Virus record (IMG/VR): IMGVR_UViG_3300025276_000110 | Span: 1-32,662 of that record | Reading direction: 5' to 3' (one strand) | Source: a virus | Length of the DNA: 32,662 bases | In this document: piece by piece, positions 977 through 15,767 of the stretch | How positions within the stretch are numbered: the first letter of the stretch is position 1 | How the letters are laid out: each line of letters starts with the position of its first letter | Made by a program: the position numbers and the translations under genes | The notes under the pieces: generated by a model | Database searches by the model: none | Told to the model about the DNA's origin: nothing | Seen by the model: the letters and a program-made list of their open reading frames with translations, nothing else

Positions 977-1942
977 ATGTGTGGAATCACAGCATACTCT
1001 GGTAAGAGTGTAAATATACTAAAGGCTATGCACTTGTTAAACGACAACGACAGCCGCGGCGGACACAGCACAGGATTGTACGCAGAGAACGGTAGCTTTA
1101 AGAAGCTATACAAAACAACAGACGAAAGCCACAACTTACTTAGAATGATTGAACATAATAAATGTGAACTATTTATAGGTCATACACGTTATGCAACTCA
1201 CGGTAAAAAGACTGCTAACAACAGTCATCCATATGTAATCGATAAGTATATCGGTTGCCACAATGGTGTATTGAGTAACTATGAAAAGTTGTGCAAAGAT
1301 AATGGTATAACACCACCTGATGTAGACAGTAAAGCTATCTATGAAATGCTAGCTAAGACAAATGATTATCAAAGTCTTGGTATGCACGGTGGTACTATCA
1401 ATGCAGTGTGGACTGAACGTGATGGTAAGTTGTATGTATACAGAAGAAACAACCCTTTGTTTATGTTAGACACAGGTAATGGTGTATACTTCTCATCTCT
1501 TGAAGAAGGTCTACTAGACATAGCTGATGGTAATGAAGTGGTAGAAGTTCCTAAGAACAAGTTACTTATATACAATCAAGGTATTTGTGATGTTGAGCTT
1601 GACATTCCTGTTACATACGTTGAGCCTGTTGGCAAGAAAGTTAAGAACTGGACTGACTACCAAGTAGACAACACAAAAGCTACTACATACAATGCAGGGT
1701 ATTGGACTGACAGTTATGCTGAAGCACCTGTTAAGGATGAGCCTGAACATATCACTACTATAAGAACACAAATTAACGTGTGTGAAATGATATACTGGGA
1801 AGCCGACCATTACTTTGAGAAATTTGAGCTCATATGTCTTGATTTGTTACGTGCTAAACTAGAAGAAGAACTAGAAGCAGAAAAAGAAAAAATTCAATAC
1901 GAAGAGATTATGAAATCCAATCAATTAACAGCACCGTTTTAA
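977..1942 (+). CDS. Class II glutamine amidotransferase (GlmS N-domain-like, stand-alone)
   Basis: This is an Ntn-hydrolase glutaminase domain that releases ammonia from glutamine. Once Met1 is removed, Cys2 (MCGITAYSG) becomes the N-terminal nucleophile. The family motifs follow in order: GHTRYATHG at residues 68-76 (substrate-binding Arg71), CHNG at 94-97 (oxyanion-hole Asn96), and VDSKAIYEML near 116-125. At 321 aa it is about half the length of GlmS. It lacks the sugar-isomerase domains and ends in a Glu/Lys-rich helix, so its acceptor partner must be another protein. The stop overlaps the next start (TAATG), and a predicted amidoligase follows. Family confidence is high. Partnership with the amidoligase is inferred from proximity and from this combination having been described in phage and plasmid amidoligase operons. 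An asparagine-synthase or sugar-amination role is less likely. Confidence 0.9.
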   Translation: MCGITAYSGKSVNILKAMHLLNDNDSRGGHSTGLYAENGSFKKLYKTTDESHNLLRMIEHNKCELFIGHTRYATHGKKTANNSHPYVIDKYIGCHNGVLSNYEKLCKDNGITPPDVDSKAIYEMLAKTNDYQSLGMHGGTINAVWTERDGKLYVYRRNNPLFMLDTGNGVYFSSLEEGLLDIADGNEVVEVPKNKLLIYNQGICDVELDIPVTYVEPVGKKVKNWTDYQVDNTKATTYNAGYWTDSYAEAPVKDEPEHITTIRTQINVCEMIYWEADHYFEKFELICLDLLRAKLEEELEAEKEKIQYEEIMKSNQLTAPF

Positions 1943-2109
1943 TGAACAGTAATCTTGAAAAGAACCTTGTCTTTGTATCTGATAGTCAGTACATTGACGA
2001 GGTCCTTACCCTCACACGTAGGTTAAGAGAGCGTTCTAACGACAAGCTAGATGTTGATGTAGTTATTAACAAACTTGTAAATATTAAGAAGTTATGCCAG
2101 AAGAAATAG
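1942..2109 (+). CDS. Small protein between amidotransferase and amidoligase, 55 aa
   Basis: A 55-codon ORF starts on the A of the upstream stop (TAATG) and ends 16 nt inside the amidoligase gene. It begins MNSNLEKNLVFVSDS and contains a charged helix (LTLTRRLRERSNDKLDVDVV) followed by a Lys-rich end. The tight overlap on both sides supports it as real and co-translated with the two enzymes. No family is recognised. It could be a small adaptor or tag-carrier for the amidoligase system, but nothing in the sequence proves this. Confidence 0.55.
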   Translation: MNSNLEKNLVFVSDSQYIDEVLTLTRRLRERSNDKLDVDVVINKLVNIKKLCQKK

Positions 2110-3518
2110 ACATTAGTAGTATACTAGTTGAAGGAGAAAATAATGATGTGTTAGACATGTCAACATTTGACGTAACTCAACAAGACAGTAACATGTGTAC
2201 TATTACTGTAGATGGTACTGAAATAGAAGTTGAGCGTTGTTTTACTTACAGAGATGAAGGTAATGAGCTTGATGAAGATAGATTCACTCAAGAAAAAATG
2301 ATTGAGTTTGCTCGAGAACATGAGTATGCATTCATAGAAAGTATGTGGCAAATTTGCAGCACAAATATTGTATGGGATTGTTGGAATGACAACTACATTG
2401 AAGAAGCAGATTCAGTATATGGTTGGGTAAGCAGAAGAGAAGAAGGTCACTTCCATTATAATGAATGTTATATAAGAGTTAACGATGCAATATACATTGA
2501 TGAAGATGTAGCTGCAGAACACAATGTACATCATAATGAATGTTGTGATGATTACAGACACGAAGACGACCCATGTGATTGTAATGACGGAAATGATTGT
2601 CACTTTGATAACACAATAAGTTATTGTAAATCAGATTCGTTAGCTCAACAAAAAAGTTTTGGTACTAACAGTCCTACATTTACTATATCTAACGGTATGC
2701 GTTATACATTCGGTGTAGAGATAGAAACAAGTCGTGGTAATTTAGATGAATGGGATGACCTAAATATATCTTCTGTTTACGATGGTTCAACTAGTGGTCC
2801 TGAATACGTTACAGGTATTCTAAAAGGCGACTACGGTTTTAATCATCTGAAGACTATATGCGATAGAGTACATGAAAATCATGAGATAAACAGACGTTGT
2901 GGTGTACATGTACACATCGGTGGTCAGTTCAATAGACTGTTCACTATCATGCTCTTACGTCTCGGTTATCAAATTCAAGATGAAATCTATCGTATGATGC
3001 CACCTTCTAGACTTGGTAATACTTTCTGTAAATACATACCTGATTATGTGATGGACATCAATCTAACAAATTGGCGTGAACACTTAGGTCGGTATATACA
3101 CGGTAGTGGTAATACGTTGGATAAAAATTGTAACAAGAAGTCAAGACTTGGTAGTTATCCATCAACTCGTTACAGGTGGATTAACTGCGTTAACTTTAGT
3201 AGTAACAGTGGTAAACCAACTGTAGAGTTCAGAAATCACAGTGCTTCTATGAGTTATTATAAGATACGCAATTGGACGTTAATGTGTATGGCTATTGTAC
3301 GCTTTGCACAGAACAACCAGAAACGTATATGGTATAATTTAGAAGATATTACACTGCATGAAGTTATGATGACTTCACTTGGTAATAATATTGGTCTACA
3401 AATTATGTCATATTATCAAAAACGTGTAGCTTTATTCGCTCATAATTATACAGAAGGTGGTGATTACTATAATAAATTACCATCGGGATACAGAAGAAAC
3501 GAAGAGACAATTGATTAA
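2094..3518 (+). CDS. Predicted amidoligase (Amidoligase_2 family, GS-like COOH-NH2 ligase)
   Basis: The C-terminal half carries the hallmarks of the glutamine-synthetase-like amidoligases, which form amide bonds in an ATP-dependent way. These are TFGVEIET at residues 205-212, YDGSTSGPEYVT at 229-240, CGVHVHIG at 269-276, RYRWINCVNF at 359-368 and TVEFRNHSAS at 376-385. The conserved Glu and His residues would bind metal and ATP. The first 190 residues are acidic and contain a Cys/His cluster (H146, H147, C150, C151, H156, C161, C163, C169, H170, C178) that may bind a metal. The substrate is unknown. The gene follows a class II glutamine amidotransferase, and a GGCT-fold gene lies 6.5 kb downstream on the same strand. 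Known family proposals include peptide tagging and cell-surface or small-molecule modification. The exact role here is inference. Confidence 0.85.
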   Translation: MPEEIDISSILVEGENNDVLDMSTFDVTQQDSNMCTITVDGTEIEVERCFTYRDEGNELDEDRFTQEKMIEFAREHEYAFIESMWQICSTNIVWDCWNDNYIEEADSVYGWVSRREEGHFHYNECYIRVNDAIYIDEDVAAEHNVHHNECCDDYRHEDDPCDCNDGNDCHFDNTISYCKSDSLAQQKSFGTNSPTFTISNGMRYTFGVEIETSRGNLDEWDDLNISSVYDGSTSGPEYVTGILKGDYGFNHLKTICDRVHENHEINRRCGVHVHIGGQFNRLFTIMLLRLGYQIQDEIYRMMPPSRLGNTFCKYIPDYVMDINLTNWREHLGRYIHGSGNTLDKNCNKKSRLGSYPSTRYRWINCVNFSSNSGKPTVEFRNHSASMSYYKIRNWTLMCMAIVRFAQNNQKRIWYNLEDITLHEVMMTSLGNNIGLQIMSYYQKRVALFAHNYTEGGDYYNKLPSGYRRNEETID

Positions 3519-3631
3519 TATACAGTAGGTAAGAGTAATTAGTGTACACTCTTTTAAGACCGTGATACTAGTGCGAGCCTGGCGAACCACATGTGCGCCT
3601 ACTATATATATTTAACTAAAACAAGACTAAG
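3519..3631 (+). other. Intergenic region with two inverted repeats (possible terminator or RNA)
   Basis: This 113-nt gap is unusually long for the block and locally G+C-richer. A first hairpin pairs AAGAGT (3531-3536) with ACTCTT (3548-3553) and is followed by a short T run, like a weak terminator for the amidoligase operon. A second pairs TAGTGCG (3569-3575) with CGC and ACTA (3596-3598 and 3601-3604, 2-nt bulge), with a palindromic CACATGTG in between. The last 30 nt are A+T-rich and lead into the next gene without a recognisable SD. Confidence 0.35.
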
Positions 3632-3814
3632 ATGGGAGTAATGAAGAAGCTAGCTATACAAATAGCAGAAGCAAATATATCAAGCCTGTACAGAGATGCA
3701 GACGCAGAAATGTTATTCATAAAAGCTATGGATGCAGAACAGCAACAACGTGTTATGCACGAAGAACAACTATTAGAAAACAAAATAGATGAAGACAGAC
3801 AAGAAAACAAATAA
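3632..3814 (+). CDS. Small helical protein, 60 aa
   Basis: A 60-residue, highly charged protein predicted to be almost entirely helical. Its C-terminal half is rich in Gln, Glu and Asp (EQQQRVMHEEQLLENKIDED). It is the first gene after the 113-nt structured gap and may begin a new transcript with the replication genes. No family is recognised. Such helical microproteins are common in phage early operons and often regulate host or phage partners, but there is no direct evidence here. Confidence 0.5.
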   Translation: MGVMKKLAIQIAEANISSLYRDADAEMLFIKAMDAEQQQRVMHEEQLLENKIDEDRQENK

Positions 3815-3821
3815 ACCAAAA

Positions 3822-3959
3822 ATGGTTACAGAAACCACTGATGTATTACAATTCGGTGCAGTTGGTTTGACAGGTGGTTACTATAGTAGTAGTAACAACA
3901 AACAAATCAAATCTTCATCAAGTTATTCACACATGTTAAACGGAAAAAAGATTAAGTAA
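3822..3959 (+). CDS. Small Ser/Gly/Tyr-rich protein, 45 aa
   Basis: A 45-codon ORF whose stop TAA (3957-3959) overlaps the ATG of the DUF932 gene, with an A-rich leader (ATAAACCAAAA) before its own start. It is rich in Ser, Gly and Tyr (GGYYSSSNNK) and ends in a basic tail. The exact overlap is the main reason to call it. No family is recognised. Confidence 0.45.
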   Translation: MVTETTDVLQFGAVGLTGGYYSSSNNKQIKSSSSYSHMLNGKKIK

Positions 3960-4834
3960 TGACAAAAAGAGATTTTTTACAAAACGGAGGGTTAGACTTT
4001 ACCGTTTTAAAAGTTCCTGTACACACATATGATGTGCTACATGAAGACGATTATAACAAAACACCATTCTTTGCTACAGTGAATGTAAATTCAGGAGAGG
4101 CGTTAGGTACAGTAAAAAGTAAATATACTGTAAAACAAAACCATGAGTTGTTAGATTATATATTAGAAAAGATTGGTGATGGTAATTATGACCTATCAGA
4201 ATCTAAGTGTGGACATTTTAACCATGGCCGTAAGGTATACTTCTATATAAAGACAACTTATACAGCTGACTGGGGTCAAGAACAAGCAGATACATATGTA
4301 TACGGCTTATCATCACATGATGGTAGTCAAAAGCTAGTGTTCGGTGTATGTAATAAGATACACAGTTGTAGTAATATGTTTGGGGTTCTTATGAACGACA
4401 AAGATAAAGCTCATATTGTTAAGCATACCAAAGCTATATCAAGTATCGAAGGTAGTAATACACTAGAAGACATGATTAATAGTAACATACGTGGTATATC
4501 TAACCTTATGAAAATTATGCAACTAAATCGAATTACACAAGATAATCCTATTGTATCTGATGTAATGGATATTGTTGCTAACTCTAAAGGTAAAGTACTA
4601 CGTACACCTTACTATACCAGACGTGATTTAGTAGAAGATTCAGTTAGAGCTGAGATGAATACTAAAGGTAATACTTACTACGGATTGTTTAACGGTATGA
4701 CTCACTATATTACACACAACATGGAGTCTGATGACAACGTGATGAATAGTATAGTAGGTAAGGGTAGCGAAATATCCAAGAAAGTAGTTCAAAAGATTGT
4801 TAAACATATGAAAGAAAATGGATGTCTGAACTAA
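3959..4834 (+). CDS. DUF932 (phage/plasmid-like) protein
   Basis: A 291-residue soluble protein with the layout of DUF932. The N-terminal strand region names the input (VPVHTYDVLHEDDYNKTPFFATVNVNSGEALGTVKSKYTVKQNHELLDYI), here spanning residues 19-70. A beta-rich core follows, with VYFYIKTTY near 92-100 and SHDGSQKLVFGVCNKIHSCSN near 118-138, and the C-terminus is helical. Family members are widespread in phages and plasmids near replication genes. Their biochemical function is not established, though a DNA-metabolism or nucleotide role is commonly suspected. The gene starts on the stop of its neighbour and overlaps the replication protein by 13 nt. Confidence 0.75.
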   Translation: MTKRDFLQNGGLDFTVLKVPVHTYDVLHEDDYNKTPFFATVNVNSGEALGTVKSKYTVKQNHELLDYILEKIGDGNYDLSESKCGHFNHGRKVYFYIKTTYTADWGQEQADTYVYGLSSHDGSQKLVFGVCNKIHSCSNMFGVLMNDKDKAHIVKHTKAISSIEGSNTLEDMINSNIRGISNLMKIMQLNRITQDNPIVSDVMDIVANSKGKVLRTPYYTRRDLVEDSVRAEMNTKGNTYYGLFNGMTHYITHNMESDDNVMNSIVGKGSEISKKVVQKIVKHMKENGCLN

Positions 4835-5421
4835 CAAAAGCAACTGATAAGTTATTATGTATCTATGAAGATGCAGAACTACAAATTAGCTTATTGTCTT
4901 TTTTAGTATTAGAATATCATGCCTCGTTAGACGAACATCTGATGGGGCATGATTCTCTATCTAATTTCTATGGTTACACTGGTAATCAATTACTTACAGC
5001 CTATGAAGAGTTAGAATACTATGGATATGTTGTACAAAAAAACGAATACATTAGTTTTACAAACAAAACAAAACAGTTGTTTAATTCTAAAGTTAATCGG
5101 TTAACTACAATAGAAAGAGAAACACTAGAAAAAACATTTGAAATCTTTTGGAAAGCTTACCCTGTTCGGGTGGGTAAAAAGAAAGCAAAGTTTGAATGGA
5201 TGAAGTTAAGACCAGACAAGAATCTATACGAAACTATAATAGAATCTATAACAACGCAAATCAAGTACAAAGCACAAGAAGAAAGAAAAGGAAAATTTGT
5301 TCCTGAATTTCAACACGCTGAACGTTGGTTGAAAAATGAACGGTACAATGACGAGTGTGTAGTAGGTAAAAACTTTATAGGTAAGCTAACTAACAATAAA
5401 CCTAAGAGAGATGAAAGATGA
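4822..5421 (+). CDS. Phage replication initiator / helicase-loader-like protein
   Basis: A 199-residue protein. The N-terminal part (residues 15-80) reads as a winged-helix DNA-binding domain (DSLSNFYGYTGNQLLTAYEELEYYGYV). Residues 107-175 contain the signature often found at the C-terminus of phage O-like or DnaD-like replication proteins: FWKAYPVRVGKKKAKFEW, then an FVPEFQHAERWLKNERYND end. Proteins of this type bind the origin and recruit the replicative helicase. The DnaB-type helicase gene follows immediately with an 11-nt overlap, which fits a loader/helicase pair. The C-terminal signature is clear; the precise mechanism is inferred. Confidence 0.7.
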   Translation: MSELTKATDKLLCIYEDAELQISLLSFLVLEYHASLDEHLMGHDSLSNFYGYTGNQLLTAYEELEYYGYVVQKNEYISFTNKTKQLFNSKVNRLTTIERETLEKTFEIFWKAYPVRVGKKKAKFEWMKLRPDKNLYETIIESITTQIKYKAQEERKGKFVPEFQHAERWLKNERYNDECVVGKNFIGKLTNNKPKRDER

Positions 5422-6697
5422 TTTAGAAGAGTTACTTATTAGTAAACTAATACATAAGAAAGATGATTACTATGAACACCATGAATTAATTACAAGTGAT
5501 TTATTTCAGAATATATCATGGCGTAAAATATTTCAATGGTTAGATGCAGAGTATCAACAAGGTAACTCTTTTGATTTAGTAAAAGGTTTAATGGAAATAC
5601 AAGGTGTTTCAGATATTGATTATAAGCTATCTAAGTGCAGTGCTAATGACAGTTGGATGCACAACACCTTAACGCTAATTGAACAGCTTACAAACAATAA
5701 AAAGCGTGTTGTAATCAAAAGTATGTGCCAAGATGTATTGTTGCAGTTAGATGATAAAGACATCAATGAACATATACAGGGTATTGAAAGTTCGATAATT
5801 AACCTATCTCGTAAAGAACATGGTGGTATTATCGAACTCACTCAACACTTGCGTGACACGATACATTTGATTGAGCAGAATTCACTATCACCAGGTCTTT
5901 CAGGTATACCTTCAGGCTTCGAATCAATTGACAGATTCACAGGTGGTTGGCAACCTCAAGATTTAATTATTGTAGGTGGTGCATCATCCATGGGTAAGAC
6001 TTCATTTGCTCTTGCTCTTGCTCATAATGCAGCTAAACATAACTATGGTACTGTTATATTCTCTTACGAGATGTCTAGTACTCAGCTAGTTTCTAGATTA
6101 TTAAGCTCTGAAACTCTTATAGATAATAGGTATCTAATAAAAGGTACATTAACTGATGACGAGTGGCGGAGAATCCACACATCTACAGGTGTTATCGAAA
6201 AAGCACCTTTGTATATAGACGAGTGTAAGAGTACTGAGCTACGTTATTTACTTAACAAGGTAAGACAATATGTATTAACTAGAGATGTAAAACTTGTAAT
6301 GATAGATTATCTCCAGCTTGTGAGCAACATGCAAAAAGGTAGAAGCAGGGAACAGGAGGTATCTGTCATTGCAAGGTCTCTTAAGAACTTAGCTAAAGAA
6401 CTAGACATAACAGTTATAGCTTTATCACAGTTATCAAGAGGTGTAGAAAGAAATGCAGGGTGCAGGCCTATGTTGTCTAATCTAAGAGAATCAGGCGAGA
6501 TAGAACAAGCAGCAGATGCAGTTGTCTTTGTATACAGACCTGAATATTATGACATTATAGCTGATGATGCTGGTAACAGCACAGAAGGTATGGCAGAAAT
6601 AATATTTGCTAAAGGTAGGAACATTGGCATAGGTAGCAAATGGCTTAAATGGATAAATTATCTAACTAAATTTGAAGACACAAAGCAAGATTATTAA
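5411..6697 (+). CDS. dnaB: DnaB-type replicative DNA helicase
   Basis: At 428 aa this matches the usual length of DnaB helicases. Residues 1-135 form the helical N-terminal domain. The RecA-like motor domain holds Walker A GGASSMGKTS (189-198), Walker B MIDYLQL (297-303), the H3 segment ALSQLSRGVERN (337-348), and the arginine-finger/L2 region LRESGEIEQAADAVVFVYRPEYY (358-380). All key residues appear intact. It unwinds the phage replication fork as a hexamer and probably works with the loader encoded directly upstream. No primase domain is fused to it and no DNA polymerase gene is present, so the phage either has these outside the window or uses the host's. Confidence 0.93.
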   Translation: MKDDLEELLISKLIHKKDDYYEHHELITSDLFQNISWRKIFQWLDAEYQQGNSFDLVKGLMEIQGVSDIDYKLSKCSANDSWMHNTLTLIEQLTNNKKRVVIKSMCQDVLLQLDDKDINEHIQGIESSIINLSRKEHGGIIELTQHLRDTIHLIEQNSLSPGLSGIPSGFESIDRFTGGWQPQDLIIVGGASSMGKTSFALALAHNAAKHNYGTVIFSYEMSSTQLVSRLLSSETLIDNRYLIKGTLTDDEWRRIHTSTGVIEKAPLYIDECKSTELRYLLNKVRQYVLTRDVKLVMIDYLQLVSNMQKGRSREQEVSVIARSLKNLAKELDITVIALSQLSRGVERNAGCRPMLSNLRESGEIEQAADAVVFVYRPEYYDIIADDAGNSTEGMAEIIFAKGRNIGIGSKWLKWINYLTKFEDTKQDY

Positions 6698-6704
6698 CAT
6701 TTTC

Positions 6705-6735
6705 TTGTTTTGTTAGTATTAATTTTGTATATTTG
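6705..6735 (+). promoter_or_regulatory. Bacteroidota-type promoter upstream of the HU-like gene
   Basis: TTG (6705-6707) and TATATTTG (6728-6735) are separated by 20 nt. This matches the -33 TTG and -7 TAnnTTTG elements used by the primary sigma factor of Bacteroidota. The -7 box ends 9 nt before the ATG at 6745, so the leader would be very short. The 47-nt gap is one of few early intergenic spaces and probably starts transcription of the recombination genes. Confidence 0.55.
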
Positions 6736-6744
6736 TAAAACAAT

Positions 6745-6972
6745 ATGAAAACATCCAAGGATATTATTGATTCAATCAGTAAAAGCAACAACTTTAGCAA
6801 ACAAATTATAAGAAAAGTTGTCAACAAAACGTTTGAAGAAATAAAAGAACGACTTAGTAAAGATGATAAAATCATGCTAAGAGGATTCATGAAGTTTGTG
6901 TGTGCAAGTAAAAAGAAAACCAAAACGTATAGTATCGAAGATTATCAAAAGTTAAAAACCAAAAACAAATGA
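6745..6972 (+). CDS. Short HU/IHF-like DNA-binding protein
   Basis: A 75-residue basic protein. The N-terminal 50 residues fit the HU/IHF helical body (IIDSISKSNNFSKQIIRKVVNKTFEEIKERLSKDDKIMLRGFMKF). The GFxxF motif at residues 47-51 corresponds to the GFGxF hinge of HU. Typical HU is about 90 aa with a long beta-arm carrying an RNP tip. Here the arm is cut short and replaced by a Lys-rich tail, so DNA bending may be altered. It has its own candidate promoter and overlaps the Sak4-like gene by 4 nt. The fold assignment is likely; whether it is a nucleoid-type or regulatory protein is open. Confidence 0.65.
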   Translation: MKTSKDIIDSISKSNNFSKQIIRKVVNKTFEEIKERLSKDDKIMLRGFMKFVCASKKKTKTYSIEDYQKLKTKNK

Positions 6973-7604
6973 AACCAAACATTATCGTAGTTGGGAAAAG
7001 TGGCTCAGGTAAGTCCACATCCCTAAGAAATCTAAATCCAGCAACAACTGCTGTATTAAACACAGAGCGTAAGCAATTACCTTTCAAAGGTGCAGGAAAG
7101 TTTAAGAATGTACCTATCCCTGACCTTAACACATTCAATGCAGCGTTTAAAAAAGCTGTAGAATCTACAGACATTGATACTATTGTAATAGAATCATTTA
7201 CATCTCTTGTAGAAATGATATACAGAGAAGCTGACGTACGTTTCAAAGGCTTTGATGTGTGGTCATTCTACAACAAAGAGATAGATAGAATCTTAAACAT
7301 GAGTAAGAACACTGACAAGCATATAATATACTTAGCTATTGATGGTGCTTACGACAGCGAAGACGGTGTGCAAGAAAGATTTGTTGCTGTAGACGGCAAC
7401 AGGTGGAAGAAACGTGTAGAGAAAGAGTTTGTTGTATGTTTATTTACAGACAACCACTATTCAAACGACCAAACAAGTTATAGATTTAGAACACAAAGCC
7501 AAGGAAAAGACTCTGCTAAGAGCCCAATGGAAATGTTTGACAATCTATATATAGACAACGACCTAGCACAGGTTATCGAAAAGTGCAACGAGTATTATAT
7601 TTAA
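6969..7604 (+). CDS. Sak4-like RecA-fold ATPase (single-strand annealing / recombination)
   Basis: A 211-residue P-loop NTPase. Walker A is GKSGSGKST (residues 9-17) and the Walker B strand is TIVIES (71-76). Helical and beta elements follow with a conserved-looking RWKKRVEKEFVVCLFT segment. Size and layout match the phage ATP-binding/Sak4 group, whose members are RecA-core ATPases that promote annealing and are commonly paired with an SSB. The next gene here is SSB-like with an acidic tail, and an exonuclease, NinB-like and RusA-like genes follow. Together this supports a phage recombination role. A generic AAA_24 ATPase is the alternative name for the same family. Confidence 0.75.
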   Translation: MKPNIIVVGKSGSGKSTSLRNLNPATTAVLNTERKQLPFKGAGKFKNVPIPDLNTFNAAFKKAVESTDIDTIVIESFTSLVEMIYREADVRFKGFDVWSFYNKEIDRILNMSKNTDKHIIYLAIDGAYDSEDGVQERFVAVDGNRWKKRVEKEFVVCLFTDNHYSNDQTSYRFRTQSQGKDSAKSPMEMFDNLYIDNDLAQVIEKCNEYYI

Positions 7605-7623
7605 CAACTAAAACCAGAGACAA

Positions 7624-8169
7624 ATGTTTCCAGATTTAAACAAAGTAGAAGTAAAAGAAACTACAAGCTATTTAACAGCAGGTGCACACAAAGTGCGAGT
7701 AGATGAAATGAGAAACTCTAATCAAAAAGAAGGGTACACAGGTACTCCTTATGTAGAGTTTAAAGTATCTAACAAAGAAGGTATATCATACCTTAAGTTT
7801 AGTGGAGTAGATGGTAATACATCAGAGAATGCAGCTCGTGTACGTACTGAAATCTTTAAAGGTTTCTTACATTCAACAGGTGCTAAATCATTTAACAGTT
7901 TACCAACAGCTTGTAAAGAAGCATTAGGTAGTACAATAAATGTTTGCCTAAGAGAACGTGAGTATTGGACTACAGATAAAGAAACAGGCGCTCCTGTAGT
8001 AAAGAGTGTAGTAGAGTACAAGTTTGCTAACCCTGAGAACAGAGCAGTTATATGGAATGATAGATTTAATCAAGCATTGAATCCAGCAGACCAAGCAGCA
8101 TACAAAGCTGCAAACGATGCGTTCTTAATGAGTCAAGGTAATGTACAAACAGATGACATGCCTTTCTAA
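7624..8169 (+). CDS. Single-stranded-DNA-binding-like protein with acidic DDMPF tail
   Basis: A 181-residue protein whose beta-rich first 140 residues could form an OB-fold (aromatic/basic strands around GTPYVEFKVSN and ISYLKFSGVDG). It ends in a flexible Gln/Ala-rich linker and the tip TDDMPF. That tip is nearly the same as the DDIPF tail by which bacterial SSB docks repair and replication proteins. Primary-sequence similarity to classical SSB is weak, so the call rests on the tail, the size and the position directly after the Sak4-like gene. A stem-loop follows 10 nt after its stop. Confidence 0.65.
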   Translation: MFPDLNKVEVKETTSYLTAGAHKVRVDEMRNSNQKEGYTGTPYVEFKVSNKEGISYLKFSGVDGNTSENAARVRTEIFKGFLHSTGAKSFNSLPTACKEALGSTINVCLREREYWTTDKETGAPVVKSVVEYKFANPENRAVIWNDRFNQALNPADQAAYKAANDAFLMSQGNVQTDDMPF

Positions 8170-8179
8170 ATAATTATAC

Positions 8180-8209
8180 GGGGGTAGCTAACACTACCCC
8201 TTATATATT
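8180..8209 (+). terminator. Stem-loop between SSB-like and NinB-like genes
   Basis: A perfect 7-bp stem pairs GGGGTAG (8181-8187) with CTACCCC (8194-8200) around a 6-nt loop, followed by TTATATATT. The T run is interrupted, so termination would be partial. It could instead protect the highly expressed SSB message or act as a processing site. The next gene starts at 8210, directly after the stem. Confidence 0.5.
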
Positions 8210-8608
8210 ATGAAGTTAAAACATATAGCAAAAGTTATAAAGTGTAAACTACACTTTGGTGATGTAACCAGACTTAACGAAGACATTTGTAGATACGAAG
8301 ATAAAACTATTGAAGTAACTATAAAAGAGTACAAACCTAAAAGAAGTAATCAATTGAATCAATACTATTGGGGAGTTGTTGTTAAAATTATATCCGACTA
8401 TACAGGGTATACTAAAGAAGAAACACACGAGCTGTTAAAGCAAACTTTTCTAAAAAAGAAAATCCTTATAGATGATGAATGGTACGACACTACGGAGAGT
8501 ACTACTAAGATGAACAATAAAGAAATGTTAGAGTTCATTGACGAAGTTAAGATGTGGGCATCACAAACACTAAGCGTTTATATACCCGACCCACATGAAA
8601 AAGAATGA
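8210..8608 (+). CDS. NinB-like recombination protein
   Basis: A 132-residue protein with the NinB/Orf layout: an RSNQLNQYYWGVVVKIISDYTGYT segment near residues 45-68, an STTKMNNKEMLEFIDEVKMWAS segment near 96-117, and a YIPDPHE terminus. Lambda NinB binds single-stranded DNA and assists recombination mediated by annealing. The gene lies between the SSB-like and RusA-like genes and overlaps the latter by 14 nt, which suits that role. The ST...EF...W and IP-P signatures make the family reasonably secure. Confidence 0.7.
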   Translation: MKLKHIAKVIKCKLHFGDVTRLNEDICRYEDKTIEVTIKEYKPKRSNQLNQYYWGVVVKIISDYTGYTKEETHELLKQTFLKKKILIDDEWYDTTESTTKMNNKEMLEFIDEVKMWASQTLSVYIPDPHEKE

Positions 8609-8999
8609 AATATTTATACCATTTAATGTTAGTTCAAGTAAGAACAGCAAACAATGGACAGGTAAATACCTAATAAACAGCAAGGCAACAAGAGAGTATA
8701 TAAAGAAGAGCAAGAACTATTACGTCGAACAGACTGAACGGTTTATCGAACTCACTAAAGACTTACCTAAACCTTTGCATGTATCATTCTATTTCATACG
8801 CAATAGCAAACGTAGGTTTGACTATATCAATCCAGCACAAACAGTGCAAGACCTGATGGTCAAGTACGGATGGATTGAAGATGATGATGTATACAACTTA
8901 GTACCATACTTTCATGGATACCATGTTGATAAAGAAAACCCAGGAGTAATTATAAAAGTTTTAAAAAATGACGAAGCAAAAAAGCACACACAAGACTAG
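8595..8999 (+). CDS. RusA-like Holliday-junction resolvase
   Basis: The central segment RRFDYINPAQTVQDLMVKYG (residues 73-92) followed by the acidic run EDDD (95-98) and a NPGVIIKV end (115-122) matches the phage RusA-like family. In E. coli RusA the catalytic set is DxDN plus a Lys and a downstream Asp. Here D76, N79, D86 and D96-98 are present, but the second Asp of DxDN is Ile78 and the Lys is Gln82. It therefore belongs to a divergent phage branch whose metal ligands may be arranged differently. It probably resolves branched replication or recombination intermediates before packaging. It overlaps both neighbours. Confidence 0.7.
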   Translation: MKKNEIFIPFNVSSSKNSKQWTGKYLINSKATREYIKKSKNYYVEQTERFIELTKDLPKPLHVSFYFIRNSKRRFDYINPAQTVQDLMVKYGWIEDDDVYNLVPYFHGYHVDKENPGVIIKVLKNDEAKKHTQD

Positions 9000-9189
9000 A
9001 CTATTAGAATGGTTTAAGACACACAATAGCATTACATCTTTAGAAGCGTTTAAAGAGCTTGGTAATACAAGGTTAGCAGCTACAATATTTACGCTGATAG
9101 ACGACGGTAATACAATAGAAAAAGAAACTATTGCAGCACCTACTAGATACAATACAAACGCATACGTAACTAAATACACACTAAAGTAA
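8968..9189 (+). CDS. Small winged-helix DNA-binding protein
   Basis: A 73-residue basic protein with a compact helix-turn-helix: TRLLEWFKTHNSITSLEAFKELGNTRLAATIFTLIDDG (residues 10-47), followed by a two-strand wing ending YVTKYTLK. Very similar small wHTH proteins are common in phage replication and recombination operons, where they may regulate or bind DNA structures. Its stop overlaps the exonuclease start, suggesting the two are made together. Confidence 0.65.
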   Translation: MTKQKSTHKTRLLEWFKTHNSITSLEAFKELGNTRLAATIFTLIDDGNTIEKETIAAPTRYNTNAYVTKYTLK

Positions 9190-9971
9190 TGAGAGAAATC
9201 AAAAAACTTACAGATGATTACATCAAAGATGATGAGTCATACTTTGCAGATAATATGTACGTTACCAACAGTATGCTTAAGCAGCTTAATAACGGTAGTA
9301 CAATAGAGCTTGAACACTATTTAAACACTGAACATAAAGAATCAGAATCTTTATTAGTTGGTAGTGCTTTTCATTGCTACATACTAGAGCCAGATGAATT
9401 TGATAAGCGTTACGTTTATGCACCAAAAGTTGATAAGCGTACTAAAGCAGGTAAAGAGTTATATGCAGAGTTTTTAGAAACTATTGGAGATAGAAAGCCA
9501 GTGCCAGCTTATTACGAATTAGTATTTGAATGTATGAACAATGCTCTTATGGTTAATCCTAATTCAAGAAAATTACTTGAAGGTGCCAAGCAACGTGAAG
9601 TGATACACTTTTGGGAAGATGTAGAAACAGGTATCAAGTGTAAGGGTAAGGTAGACGCAGAAGGTGATGAGTATTTAGTAGACCTTAAGACTACAAGTAA
9701 GGGTGCTAACCTAAAGGCTTTTCAAAAGTTTGCTACAGACTATAACATTACACAGCAAGCAGCTTTCTATTTAAATGGTACACAAAAGAAAACATTCTTC
9801 TTTATAATGTGTGAGCTTAAAGCTCCGTTCGGTATAGGTATATATCAGATGAGCGACAAAGCTATTGAGCATGGTAACAAAGAAGTTGCAGGTTGTTTAA
9901 ATTTCTACTCTAAAATAATAGAGGAAGAATTAGTAACTGACCTTAACGGAGGTAATGTAGTTATTGTGTAA
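9189..9971 (+). CDS. PD-(D/E)XK exonuclease (RecE/DUF3799-like)
   Basis: A 260-residue nuclease of the lambda-exonuclease/RecB fold. Visible motifs are LLVGSAFHCYILEPDEF (residues 55-71, motif I GxAxH), D156 in KGKVDAEGD, the catalytic D165-x-K167 in VDLKTT, and QQAAFY at 189-194 for the conserved Gln/Tyr motif. Such enzymes resect one strand of dsDNA to give single-strand tails for annealing, so it fits with the Sak4-like, SSB-like and NinB-like proteins encoded upstream. All catalytic residues are present. Confidence 0.85.
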   Translation: MREIKKLTDDYIKDDESYFADNMYVTNSMLKQLNNGSTIELEHYLNTEHKESESLLVGSAFHCYILEPDEFDKRYVYAPKVDKRTKAGKELYAEFLETIGDRKPVPAYYELVFECMNNALMVNPNSRKLLEGAKQREVIHFWEDVETGIKCKGKVDAEGDEYLVDLKTTSKGANLKAFQKFATDYNITQQAAFYLNGTQKKTFFFIMCELKAPFGIGIYQMSDKAIEHGNKEVAGCLNFYSKIIEEELVTDLNGGNVVIV

Positions 9972-10372
9972 TGGAGTTAGTATTTGTATACGGTACTCTT
10001 AAGCAAGGCTTTAGTAACCACGGGTTGTTAAAACAATCTAAACTAATAGGTAGTGCGCAAACAAAAGAAAAGTTTGTAATGTATTCTAGTGGTATACCTT
10101 ACGTTTCTAAAAGGTTTAAAGCTTCTTACATATCAGGCGAAGTATATAGTGTTAGCAATGACACTATGTACAACCTTGATATTTTAGAATGTCACCCAGA
10201 ATGGTACGTAAGAAGTAAAACTTCAGTGGAGGTTATAGACAAAAAAGGAAAATTAATAACAGTAGATGCGTGGTTGTATTTTAACGAACACATACCACAA
10301 GGCGCATCTTTAATACAGTCAGGAATTTATGGACAAAACAAAACAAGTAGATTTAACGCCTTACTTCTCTGA
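9971..10372 (+). CDS. Gamma-glutamylcyclotransferase-fold (AIG2/GGCT-like) protein
   Basis: A 133-residue protein with the GGCT signature VYGTLKQGFSNHGLL (residues 6-20), which forms the substrate-binding loop. The ISGEVYSV strand (54-61) and the LDILECHPEWYVRSKTSV segment (69-86) follow. E73 in LDILE matches the proposed catalytic acid/base. Known members cleave gamma-glutamyl amides, releasing 5-oxoproline. In a phage that also encodes a class II amidotransferase and an amidoligase, it could remove or edit the amide-linked adduct. This family is a recognised companion of GS-like amidoligases. It starts on the stop of the exonuclease gene and overlaps the next ORF by 44 nt. Confidence 0.8.
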   Translation: MELVFVYGTLKQGFSNHGLLKQSKLIGSAQTKEKFVMYSSGIPYVSKRFKASYISGEVYSVSNDTMYNLDILECHPEWYVRSKTSVEVIDKKGKLITVDAWLYFNEHIPQGASLIQSGIYGQNKTSRFNALLL

Positions 10373-10553
10373 TAAAGATGTAAGAAAATCAATAGACATA
10401 CTACTGCATAAGAACGCAGTAGTACAATCTAGCTTAGGTATAGATAGCACTAAAGAAGAAAAAGATATAGCACATGAGAAAACTAAGAGAATCAAAACTG
10501 ATATTGCAGCCATGGATGGTGTATTCGCAGAACATTGCTTCCCTGAATACTAG
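10329..10553 (+). CDS. Hypothetical charged protein, 74 aa
   Basis: A 74-residue helical, Lys/Asp-rich protein with no membrane segment. It overlaps the GGCT-like gene by 44 nt and the DnaA-domain gene by up to 80 nt, both longer than usual. Coding frame is plausible from composition (KEEKDIAHEKTKRIKTDI reads as a helix). No family is recognised. Confidence 0.5.
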   Translation: MDKTKQVDLTPYFSDKDVRKSIDILLHKNAVVQSSLGIDSTKEEKDIAHEKTKRIKTDIAAMDGVFAEHCFPEY

Positions 10554-10995
10554 CGATAGAAATAAAGATTTAATACTTGAAATTGTTAAAACTGCATTTA
10601 CATACAAAGGCGTTGAATACAAATATATAGAATCGCGCAGAAGAGAAATAGTAGATGCTAAAATTATAGTATGCAAAGTATTGTATGAGTTCTTTAAATT
10701 ATCATTTGCTGGTATAGGTAGTGTGTTTAATAAAAATCATGCAACTGTAATACATTACATAAAGATGTATAACAACACTTTGATACATAACAAAGAAGAT
10801 GTAGTTTTGTTTAATAGATTGTGTGATAACGCAATTACAGGTATATATGGAGATAAGGTTGATTTAGAGTTGTCCTTATCTACTGCTGAATTAGAAAAGC
10901 TAAACAATCAACAATTACGTAGATTAATCAAGGAGATTACTATAGAAAACAATTCTCTTAAAAGTAAATTAGAGAAAATTAAAAGCTATGCATAG
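10516..10995 (+). CDS. DnaA domain IV-like origin/DNA-binding protein
   Basis: The core matches the C-terminal DNA-binding domain of DnaA. ESRRREIVDAKIIV (basic loop/helix) is followed by LSFAGIGSVFNKNHATVIHYIK, where NHATVIH corresponds to the DHTTVIHA signature that reads the DnaA box. The AAA+ domain of DnaA is absent. The upstream ORF edge is at 10474, but ATG 10516 reduces overlap with the preceding gene to 38 nt and is preferred. After the domain, a roughly 50-residue Leu/Glu/Lys coiled coil (AELEKLNNQQLRRLIKEITI) ends the protein and could dimerise it. It may act at a phage origin, compete with host DnaA, or repress host initiation. Confidence 0.75.
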   Translation: MVYSQNIASLNTSDRNKDLILEIVKTAFTYKGVEYKYIESRRREIVDAKIIVCKVLYEFFKLSFAGIGSVFNKNHATVIHYIKMYNNTLIHNKEDVVLFNRLCDNAITGIYGDKVDLELSLSTAELEKLNNQQLRRLIKEITIENNSLKSKLEKIKSYA

Positions 10996-14440: not shown

Positions 14441-14830
14441 TTATTTTTTCGAAGAACCTCCAAAAAAGAAATCGATTATAGTATTAACTTTACTAGACAT
14501 AGCACCAAAAACAGTACTAATAAAACCTATTTCGTAATCAGATAATTCTAAAGTATTCATTACAAAGTACTTAAACATGGTGTAAGATAGGAAAAAATAT
14601 GCACCCGTAAAGATAATTGCAAGAAGTTTTTGTATAATGCTATCATCAGCAAATAAATTACGTGCACTTTTACGGTCTTCTACCTCTAACTTAAACACCT
14701 CTTGTTCATGTTGTTGACCTAATTGTTCAAGTTTATTTTTAAGAACCAATCGTTCTTCGTCAGTAGTTACTACCTCGTCTATTATAGTAGATGCTTGACC
14801 TACTAGTTTACTTATTATATTTTTAAACAT
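14441..14830 (-). CDS. Holin (3TM-holin-like)
   Basis: I choose ATG 14828-14830, which overlaps the stop of the endolysin gene (ATGTTTAA), rather than the ORF edge at 14905. This gives 129 aa. The N-terminal half has the pattern VVTTDEERLVLKNKLEQLGQQHEQEV...EVEDRKSARN, typical of the GTA/3TM holin group. Two clear hydrophobic segments follow, at about residues 66-92 and 100-122, and the end is SSKK. It would form the inner-membrane lesions that let the endolysin out. The immediate upstream neighbour encoding an M15 peptidase supports this. Confidence 0.7.
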   Translation of the reverse strand: MFKNIISKLVGQASTIIDEVVTTDEERLVLKNKLEQLGQQHEQEVFKLEVEDRKSARNLFADDSIIQKLLAIIFTGAYFFLSYTMFKYFVMNTLELSDYEIGFISTVFGAMSSKVNTIIDFFFGGSSKK

Positions 14831-15278
14831 CTGCGTATTTGTATTTAGTGTCTCCATCCTCATCTTTGTAGGCTTCGAGTACTTGGTTTCTATTATTAAC
14901 TCCAACTAAAGATATGTGTATCCATGCAAAGTCAAACTCATTAATCATCTGGTCAAATTCTAATCCAGAACTTAGTATCCAATCATATATAACTTTGTTA
15001 TCCATTTTACCATCAGCCCAAAATTGTATATCTAATGCCTGACCTTTACAATGCTGGCTTTTTCTACTACCACCAATAGCTCGATTTAAATCTTTTCCTC
15101 TGTATCCACTACTTATACGTATTGGCCCTATAGCATCTCGCATAGTCTGTATAAGATTGTTAATCAATAAACTCATGTTCGCTAAATGTTTATCATTAGG
15201 CTCGTTATCTATACCTAATCGTTTAGCTGTGTTGCTGTGCGTTATTTCAGACAATGCAAAGTTTTTACTTAATTTCAT
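14823..15278 (-). CDS. Peptidase M15 endolysin (D-Ala-D-Ala / L-Ala-D-Glu-type)
   Basis: A 151-residue zinc peptidase of the M15_3 family. Ligands are H76 and D83 (SRKSQHCKGQALDI) and H121 (AWIHISL). SSGYRGKDLNRAIGG at 56-70 is the family's conserved stretch before the first ligand. No signal peptide is present, so it depends on the adjacent holin for export. All catalytic residues are intact, making it the most likely main endolysin. It cuts peptide cross-bridges of peptidoglycan. Confidence 0.85.
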   Translation of the reverse strand: MKLSKNFALSEITHSNTAKRLGIDNEPNDKHLANMSLLINNLIQTMRDAIGPIRISSGYRGKDLNRAIGGSRKSQHCKGQALDIQFWADGKMDNKVIYDWILSSGLEFDQMINEFDFAWIHISLVGVNNRNQVLEAYKDEDGDTKYKYADV

Positions 15279-15279
15279 C

Positions 15280-15399
15280 TTAAGAATGTGTTAGAATTAT
15301 AAATCCTATTATATAACATAATACCATAGTTGTCCAAAAAAATGCAATGGCTATAGTAGATTTATGTAACTTGTTTAAGTTTGTTTTTATTTTTTTCAT
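15280..15399 (-). CDS. 39-residue single-TM peptide in the lysis cassette
   Basis: A 40-codon ORF whose ATG overlaps the stop of the thioredoxin-like gene and which ends just before the endolysin start. A basic N-terminus (MKKIKTNLNKLHKS) is followed by one hydrophobic helix (TIAIAFFWTTMVLCYIIGFIIL). Orientation N-in is expected. It may be a second holin-type or regulatory membrane peptide. Confidence 0.5.
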   Translation of the reverse strand: MKKIKTNLNKLHKSTIAIAFFWTTMVLCYIIGFIILTHS

Positions 15400-15767
15400 T
15401 AGTGAAACTTACTAAATGTTATATCGTCTATTGAATTTTGTACTTTTTTTTTATTAGCATTTAACTGTAACATAATGTTAGAGATAAATCTCTTTTCTTC
15501 AGTACCATTGTTTAATACAACAACTGTAGGCACAGAAGTAATGCTAAATTTTTTTTGTATTGATGAATGCTTTACTATGTCTACCCTGTACACATCGCAA
15601 TCTTTTAACGCAGGTAAAAAATCAACTTGATTACCTTTATTCCATTCAGCCCAAAACTCAATTACCACTGTTCCTTTAGAAGTTTTAGAATCAAAAGTGT
15701 TAGTAGAAATAAAGTCTTGAGCGTGGGTAATCAGGGGGAGTAGTAATATGTATACAAGCTTATTCAT
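15399..15767 (-). CDS. Exported thioredoxin-fold protein lacking the CxxC motif
   Basis: A 122-residue protein with a signal peptide (MNKLVYILLLPLITHAQ, likely cut after Ala16). A thioredoxin domain follows: VVIEFWAEW at 34-42, VDIVKHSSIQKKFSITSVPTVVVLNNG at 62-88, and the cis-Pro P80 preceded by Val. The WCxxC active site is W42-N43-K44-G45-N46, so both cysteines are Asn and it cannot act as a classical oxidoreductase. It lies between a TM/coiled-coil protein and a TM peptide in the lysis cassette, so a periplasmic binding or chaperone role in lysis or envelope modification is plausible but unproven. Confidence 0.7.
   Translation of the reverse strand: MNKLVYILLLPLITHAQDFISTNTFDSKTSKGTVVIEFWAEWNKGNQVDFLPALKDCDVYRVDIVKHSSIQKKFSITSVPTVVVLNNGTEEKRFISNIMLQLNANKKKVQNSIDDITFSKFH

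Follow-up and report, generated by a model that had tools for sequence, protein, structure and literature searches.

Amide bonds of glutamate are made by glutamine synthetase (GS)-like ligases, hydrolysed by class II glutaminases and opened by GGACT enzymes, which detach a gamma-glutamyl group from an amine by cyclisation. GS-like gamma-glutamylation of amines is carried out by PuuA and 1-naphthylamine GS, and in the butirosin pair BtrJ/BtrG a gamma-glutamyl group is added and then removed by GGCT deprotection. A phage cassette of such enzymes was reportedly predicted by Iyer et al. in 2009, as papers citing that work state. In PSA-HP1 the cassette consists of a gamma-glutamyl amidoligase, a second amidoligase, an ATP-grasp protein, a glutamine amidotransferase and a gamma-glutamyl cyclotransferase, and its predicted role is peptidoglycan modification against superinfection (PMC5498523). 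The cassette is also listed for RIO-1, phiEco32, LUZ24, PaP3 and CW02 (PMC5498523; PMC3890496), and UFV-P2 has the same genes (PMC3890496). Modification of the host surface is a published prediction and not a new idea; the sections consulted of the publications on these cassettes describe no test of an individual enzyme.

We analysed 32,662 nucleotides of viral DNA (IMG/VR record IMGVR_UViG_3300025276_000110), here called the window. A preliminary description made from the letters had reported three enzymes in one early operon, a class II glutaminase, a GS-like amidoligase and a GGCT-fold protein, and had read them as a functional module with candidate targets on the host surface, on phage proteins or on DNA. 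Its statement that GS-like amidoligases had already been described with these partners in phages agrees with the published cassette (PMC5498523; PMC3890496). The following features were located.

977-1942, plus strand: class II (Ntn-hydrolase, GlmS-like) glutaminase domain protein, 321 aa, no fused synthase, helical C-terminal tail
1942-2109, plus strand: 55-aa accessory ORF, overlapping the glutaminase gene on one side and the amidoligase gene on the other
2094-3518, plus strand: glutamine-synthetase-like amidoligase (Amidoligase_2), 474 aa, 200-aa N-terminal extension
3959-9971, plus strand: replication/recombination block between the pair and the GGCT gene, order conserved in relatives
8180-8201, plus strand: GC-rich hairpin, 8 nt before the NinB start (8210)
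9971-10372, plus strand: GGCT-fold (GGACT/AIG2-like) gamma-glutamyl cyclotransferase, 133 aa

Like the RIO-1/LUZ24-type cassette, the window holds a GS-like amidoligase, a class II glutaminase and a GGCT amid genes of transcription, DNA metabolism and replication. It differs in having neither an ATP-grasp ligase nor a second COOH-NH2 ligase, in a glutaminase of 321 aa as compared to 486-510 aa in UFV-P2 and LUZ24, and in not being contiguous: the GGCT gene lies 6.5 kb off behind replication/recombination genes, at the distance and on the strand first reported. For the ATP-grasp ligase, a PF13535 search was dropped because it missed even phages with an ATP-grasp gene, and phrog_2599 was used instead; it matched nothing in the window or in 29 related records, mostly fragments, and matched 4/4 annotated phages expected to carry the gene. 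The COOH-NH2 ligase (PF14395) was found neither in the window nor in the four closest records and was matched in four annotated phages carrying it. In a seeded search of all loci, both ligases were confined to other phage groups. Absence of the two extra ligases from the window clade thus appears well supported for the neighbourhood of these genes, the records being too fragmentary for a genome-wide statement. We class the window set as a variant form of this cassette rather than as a full member.

Two further phage groups invite comparison. In the crAss-like phages phi14:2 and cr108_1 the glutaminase adjoins Amidoligase_2 in the early region, as in the window; unlike the window, both carry ATP-grasp and COOH-NH2 ligases, cr108_1 has no GGCT, and amidoligase identity with the window is 27-28%. 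The OM43 phages, a marine lineage, share an amidoligase (PF12224) and a GATase (PF13522) with the window, whereas GGCT is absent from the metabolic genes named in the sections consulted (PMC10580990).

The description of all three enzymes as intact by motif was upheld: each exceeded the curated cut-off of its family, and catalytic residues were kept in relatives of 32-37% identity. The glutaminase matched PF13522 (GATase_6) with 34.5 bits (cut-off 27, E = 2.5e-8) and also phrog_4736/14519 in profile searches. Its N-terminus reads MCGI, the motif GHTRYATHG is present, and the class II features (a Cys exposed by loss of the initiator Met, together with the RxxTHG, NG and D motifs) were all found. 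Residues C2, R27, R71, T74, H75, H84, N96, G97 and D117 were invariant in an alignment of 33 clade sequences, and catalytic positions were unchanged in the most distant relatives collected (36% identity). Comparison of its AlphaFold model with known folds gave GlmS, PurF and EgtC as structural matches. GlmS and PurF are ammonia donors, and EgtC is a stand-alone gamma-glutamyl hydrolase. Because no synthase is fused to the window glutaminase, its acceptor is to be expected in trans, and the amidoligase is the obvious candidate.

The amidoligase matched PF12224 with 55.4 bits (cut-off 22, E = 1.1e-14) and contains GVEIE, CGVHVHIG and TVEFR. E209, E211, E237, H272, H274, R359, E378 and R380 were invariant in 35 sequences, and the most distant relatives collected (32% identity) showed no change at catalytic positions. 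We take ExE (E209/E211), HxH (H272/H274) and ExR (E378/R380) to be the metal and substrate positions equivalent to those of GS. A structural model (pLDDT 79.6) matched glutamine synthetase, YbdK, 1-naphthylamine GS, Dop and PafA among PDB folds. The best matches by E-value belonged to the GS/GCS superfamily, just two of them below E 0.001, and TM-scores were low; hence, the superfamily is supported and not a specific function. The amidoligase profile found no match among PDB sequences, so that the link to GS comes from the fold comparison alone. With PuuA/1-naphthylamine GS and BtrJ/BtrG the window would share the pairing of a ligase that adds gamma-glutamyl with an enzyme that removes it, whereas in sequence its amidoligase is too distant for any PDB profile match, naphthylamine GS being a fold match. 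The N-terminal 200 aa (2094-2693) are rich in Cys, His and acidic residues, are repetitive in relatives, matched no Pfam family and are missing from bacterial forms of about 310 aa.

The GGCT protein matched PF06094 (GGACT) with E = 2.5e-21 in a profile search and contains YGTLKQG and E73. The YGTL loop and the catalytic Glu E73 were invariant in 50 clade sequences, and catalytic positions were unchanged in the most distant relatives collected (37% identity). The nearest solved relatives include the AIG2-like domain proteins 1vkb, 3jub, 3juc and 3jud, and active-site features could be aligned to 2kl2 and 1vkb. In a GGCT tree, linked genes grouped together weakly and deep forks were unresolved; use of this tree to date the move of GGCT away from the glutaminase was dropped for that reason. 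Comparison of the window with L001 gave dN/dS values of about 0.22 for the glutaminase, about 0.36 for the amidoligase and 0.05-0.18 for the neighbouring replication genes; all compared genes are constrained, the amidoligase least.

Glutaminase and amidoligase are adjacent and overlapped by the 55-aa ORF, as had been noted; its overlap with the glutaminase stop is 1 nt (TAATG) and that with the amidoligase start 16 nt. The ORF was 87-96% identical in the closest relatives, above the amidoligase beside it, and is, judging by this conservation, a real gene. Its 23 distinct copies were confined to the subclade bearing DUF932; in the other subclade it is absent, and glutaminase and amidoligase abut. 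Being missing from one subclade, it is disfavoured as an essential part of the system or as a tag. At its start the GGCT gene, for its part, overlaps the exonuclease stop (TAATG) and not a gene of the glutaminase-amidoligase pair.

Co-occurrence was analysed with Sak4 as a neutral anchor, 80 IMG/VR loci being picked by the Sak4 gene alone as a guard against circularity. Glutaminase and amidoligase were present in 34/34 loci with at least 6.5 kb of upstream sequence and GGCT in 38/40 with at least 4.2 kb downstream. As some of the contigs counted overlap or are almost identical, and as one clade of shared gene order is among them, these are not independent trials. Of 72 distinct viral amidoligase alleles, 26 had sufficient flanking sequence, and all three genes were present at 24 of these. 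Of 50,697 phage records, 295 contained a detectable relative of the glutaminase and 114 one of GGCT; since such relatives are this rare, chance co-occurrence is excluded. The three genes are retained across a large family of related phages.

Throughout the window clade, GGCT lies 7-9 kb downstream, split off by the replication/recombination block. Sister phages were gathered by a search with the amidoligase profile, and eight of them (L251, L253, L254, L256, L257, L259, L261 and L263) have GGCT directly upstream of the glutaminase; in L243 it lies 2.7 kb upstream of the amidoligase. LUZ24 and phi14:2 have it beside the ATP-grasp gene. Phage C75C1 encodes one 298-aa protein (L012:14503-15399) that is half class II glutaminase and half GGCT, located 0.85 kb after the amidoligase and annotated solely as a gamma-glutamyl cyclotransferase. 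We rejected synteny as a full account of the co-occurrence, given the several positions of GGCT and its fusion to the C75C1 glutaminase. Several sister clusters additionally carry a C26-family protein.

Exceptions were also found. Contigs L100 and L098 agree at 99.99% for 11.6 kb and are unrelated beyond that point, where L100 has other sequence in place of the exonuclease and GGCT; its glutaminase and amidoligase are kept. The break reflects either recombination that swapped this module or a join made in assembly. GGCT is missing beside the glutaminase-amidoligase pair in L255, L265/L266 and cr108_1. In Bacillus phage 031MP004 it is the glutaminase that is missing, amidoligase and GGCT being present, and one Porphyromonas phage carries the amidoligase alone. 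Short amidoligases outside the window clade often occur without one or both partners: at 80 bacterial loci they were near a short glutaminase in 11 and near GGCT in 6, with neither partner within 10 kb in 63. Glutaminase alone or GGCT alone is the sole neighbour of some short amidoligases. Furthermore, a conserved small protein (about 60-100 aa) was observed directly downstream of short bacterial Amidoligase_2 genes at 25 of 57 loci (L136:10539-10859, L210:10155-10502, L182:10792-11166 and 22 others); three examples scanned matched nothing in Pfam, and a C-terminal tag motif is lacking in the family.

Within related phages, the amidoligase was found with its partners and GGCT co-occurred with it, the pattern on which the preliminary description had made its module reading depend. 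That reading has gained from conservation at the Sak4 anchor, from the rearrangements and the fusion and from the published cassette, and has lost some ground through the independent loss of GGCT in L100. The claim of one early operon went too far: the genes share a strand, but a 113-nt gap lies 3' of the amidoligase and a conserved hairpin before the NinB-to-GGCT block. The whole replication/recombination block that follows the pair runs DUF932, 199-aa ORF, DnaB-like helicase, HU-like ORF, Sak4, 181-aa ORF, NinB, RusA and exonuclease VIII-like gene. The hairpin stem is at the same place, with small changes, in L001, L003 and L004 and may separate or regulate the part that holds GGCT. Downstream of the amidoligase, an RNA element was sought; the fold was no better than that of shuffled sequences and Rfam gave no match, and a Bacteroidetes-type promoter pattern was in no excess over shuffles. 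Additionally, the window encodes at 10474-10995 a fast-diverging phage protein (32% identity in L001) with a DnaA C-terminal helix-turn-helix (PF08299) and, on the minus strand, a thioredoxin-like protein (15399-15767) near an M15-type peptidase (14823-15278), likely an endolysin.

With moderate confidence, and from comparison of sequences, we regard the window trio as a reduced three-enzyme form of the cassette of RIO-1-like, LUZ24-like and some crAss-like phages, whose members would jointly carry out gamma-glutamyl or amide chemistry. The amidoligase, by its fold and invariant residues, would activate a carboxylate with ATP and join it to an amine or to ammonia. The glutaminase would break a gamma-glutamyl amide, either delivering ammonia to the ligase or taking gamma-glutamyl off the ligase product, and GGCT, by family and active site, would free the gamma-glutamyl group of a gamma-glutamyl-amine as 5-oxoproline. 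As a net result, a group may be installed and removed, or a molecule amidated, on host or phage early in infection; the published guess for such a target is peptidoglycan. Gamma-glutamyl chemistry appears to fit better than ammonia supply alone because some short amidoligases are accompanied by just one of the two cleaving enzymes, be it glutaminase or GGCT, which would be expected of enzymes that share gamma-glutamyl amides as substrates, and because of the C26-family additions.

It is conceivable, though on the unlikely side, that glutaminase and amidoligase form a split glutamine-dependent amide synthase and that GGCT is independent, serving gamma-glutamyl-amine or glutathione turnover and travelling with the recombination exonuclease. 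The glutaminase would then give NH3 and the amidoligase would amidate a carboxylate, e.g., in peptidoglycan peptides. The coupling of the pair by overlapping frames, its never being separated in the clade, the overlap of the GGCT start with the exonuclease stop, the joint exchange of these two genes in L100 and the GGCT-less clusters (L255, L265, cr108_1) are all consistent with this explanation, but it does not account for GGCT beside the pair in sister phages, LUZ24 and phi14:2, for its fusion to the glutaminase in C75C1, or for amidoligases whose only partner is GGCT. We consider it rather doubtful that the enzymes are auxiliary genes of nitrogen metabolism, which push host ammonia, glutamine and glutamate flux and modify no specific target. 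A phage with a glutamine amidotransferase, an amidoligase, a 'glutathione synthase' and a gamma-glutamylcyclotransferase raised host growth on nitrate or ammonium, and its authors propose this role; the growth effect is described there for the phage as a whole (PMC10945688). The 200-aa N-terminal extension of the amidoligase and the up to three ligases in larger clusters, in contrast, suggest a dedicated product.

Two other explanations carry little weight. That the replication block produces a modified nucleotide or a DNA-linked group is very improbable: the genes do lie amid replication/recombination genes here and in crAss-like phages, but seven clade records, being fragments and therefore weak evidence, contained no PF00303 thymidylate synthase/hydroxymethylase relative, and base-modification partners were not seen in annotated relatives. 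Hardly any probability at all is left for ligation of the neighbouring small ORF to a target by the amidoligase, as by PafA with Pup. PafA and Dop are among its fold matches, the 55-aa ORF lies inside the pair in one subclade, and bacterial short amidoligases are followed by a small protein at the 25 loci described above. On the other hand, the ORF is missing from the other subclade, the conserved LCQ at its C-terminus overlaps the amidoligase ATG and is explained by that start codon, and no C-terminal tag motif is common to the small proteins of bacteria, whose kinship to the 55-aa ORF is at best putative.

To return to the reduced three-enzyme cassette, a narrower version, which we hold only tentatively and think improbable, is that the trio forms a minimal self-contained gamma-glutamyl cycle: the amidoligase would add gamma-glutamyl to an amine on some molecule of host or phage, with GGCT and glutaminase as alternative erasers. 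If so, the phage could switch a modification on and off, and the larger cassettes would be elaborations of this core. The glutaminase-GGCT fusion and the short amidoligases with a single partner point to gamma-glutamyl amide chemistry as a common theme of these systems. The cassettes were predicted more than 15 years ago, and the three-enzyme clade with its invariant active sites offers a far smaller system for a first biochemical test.
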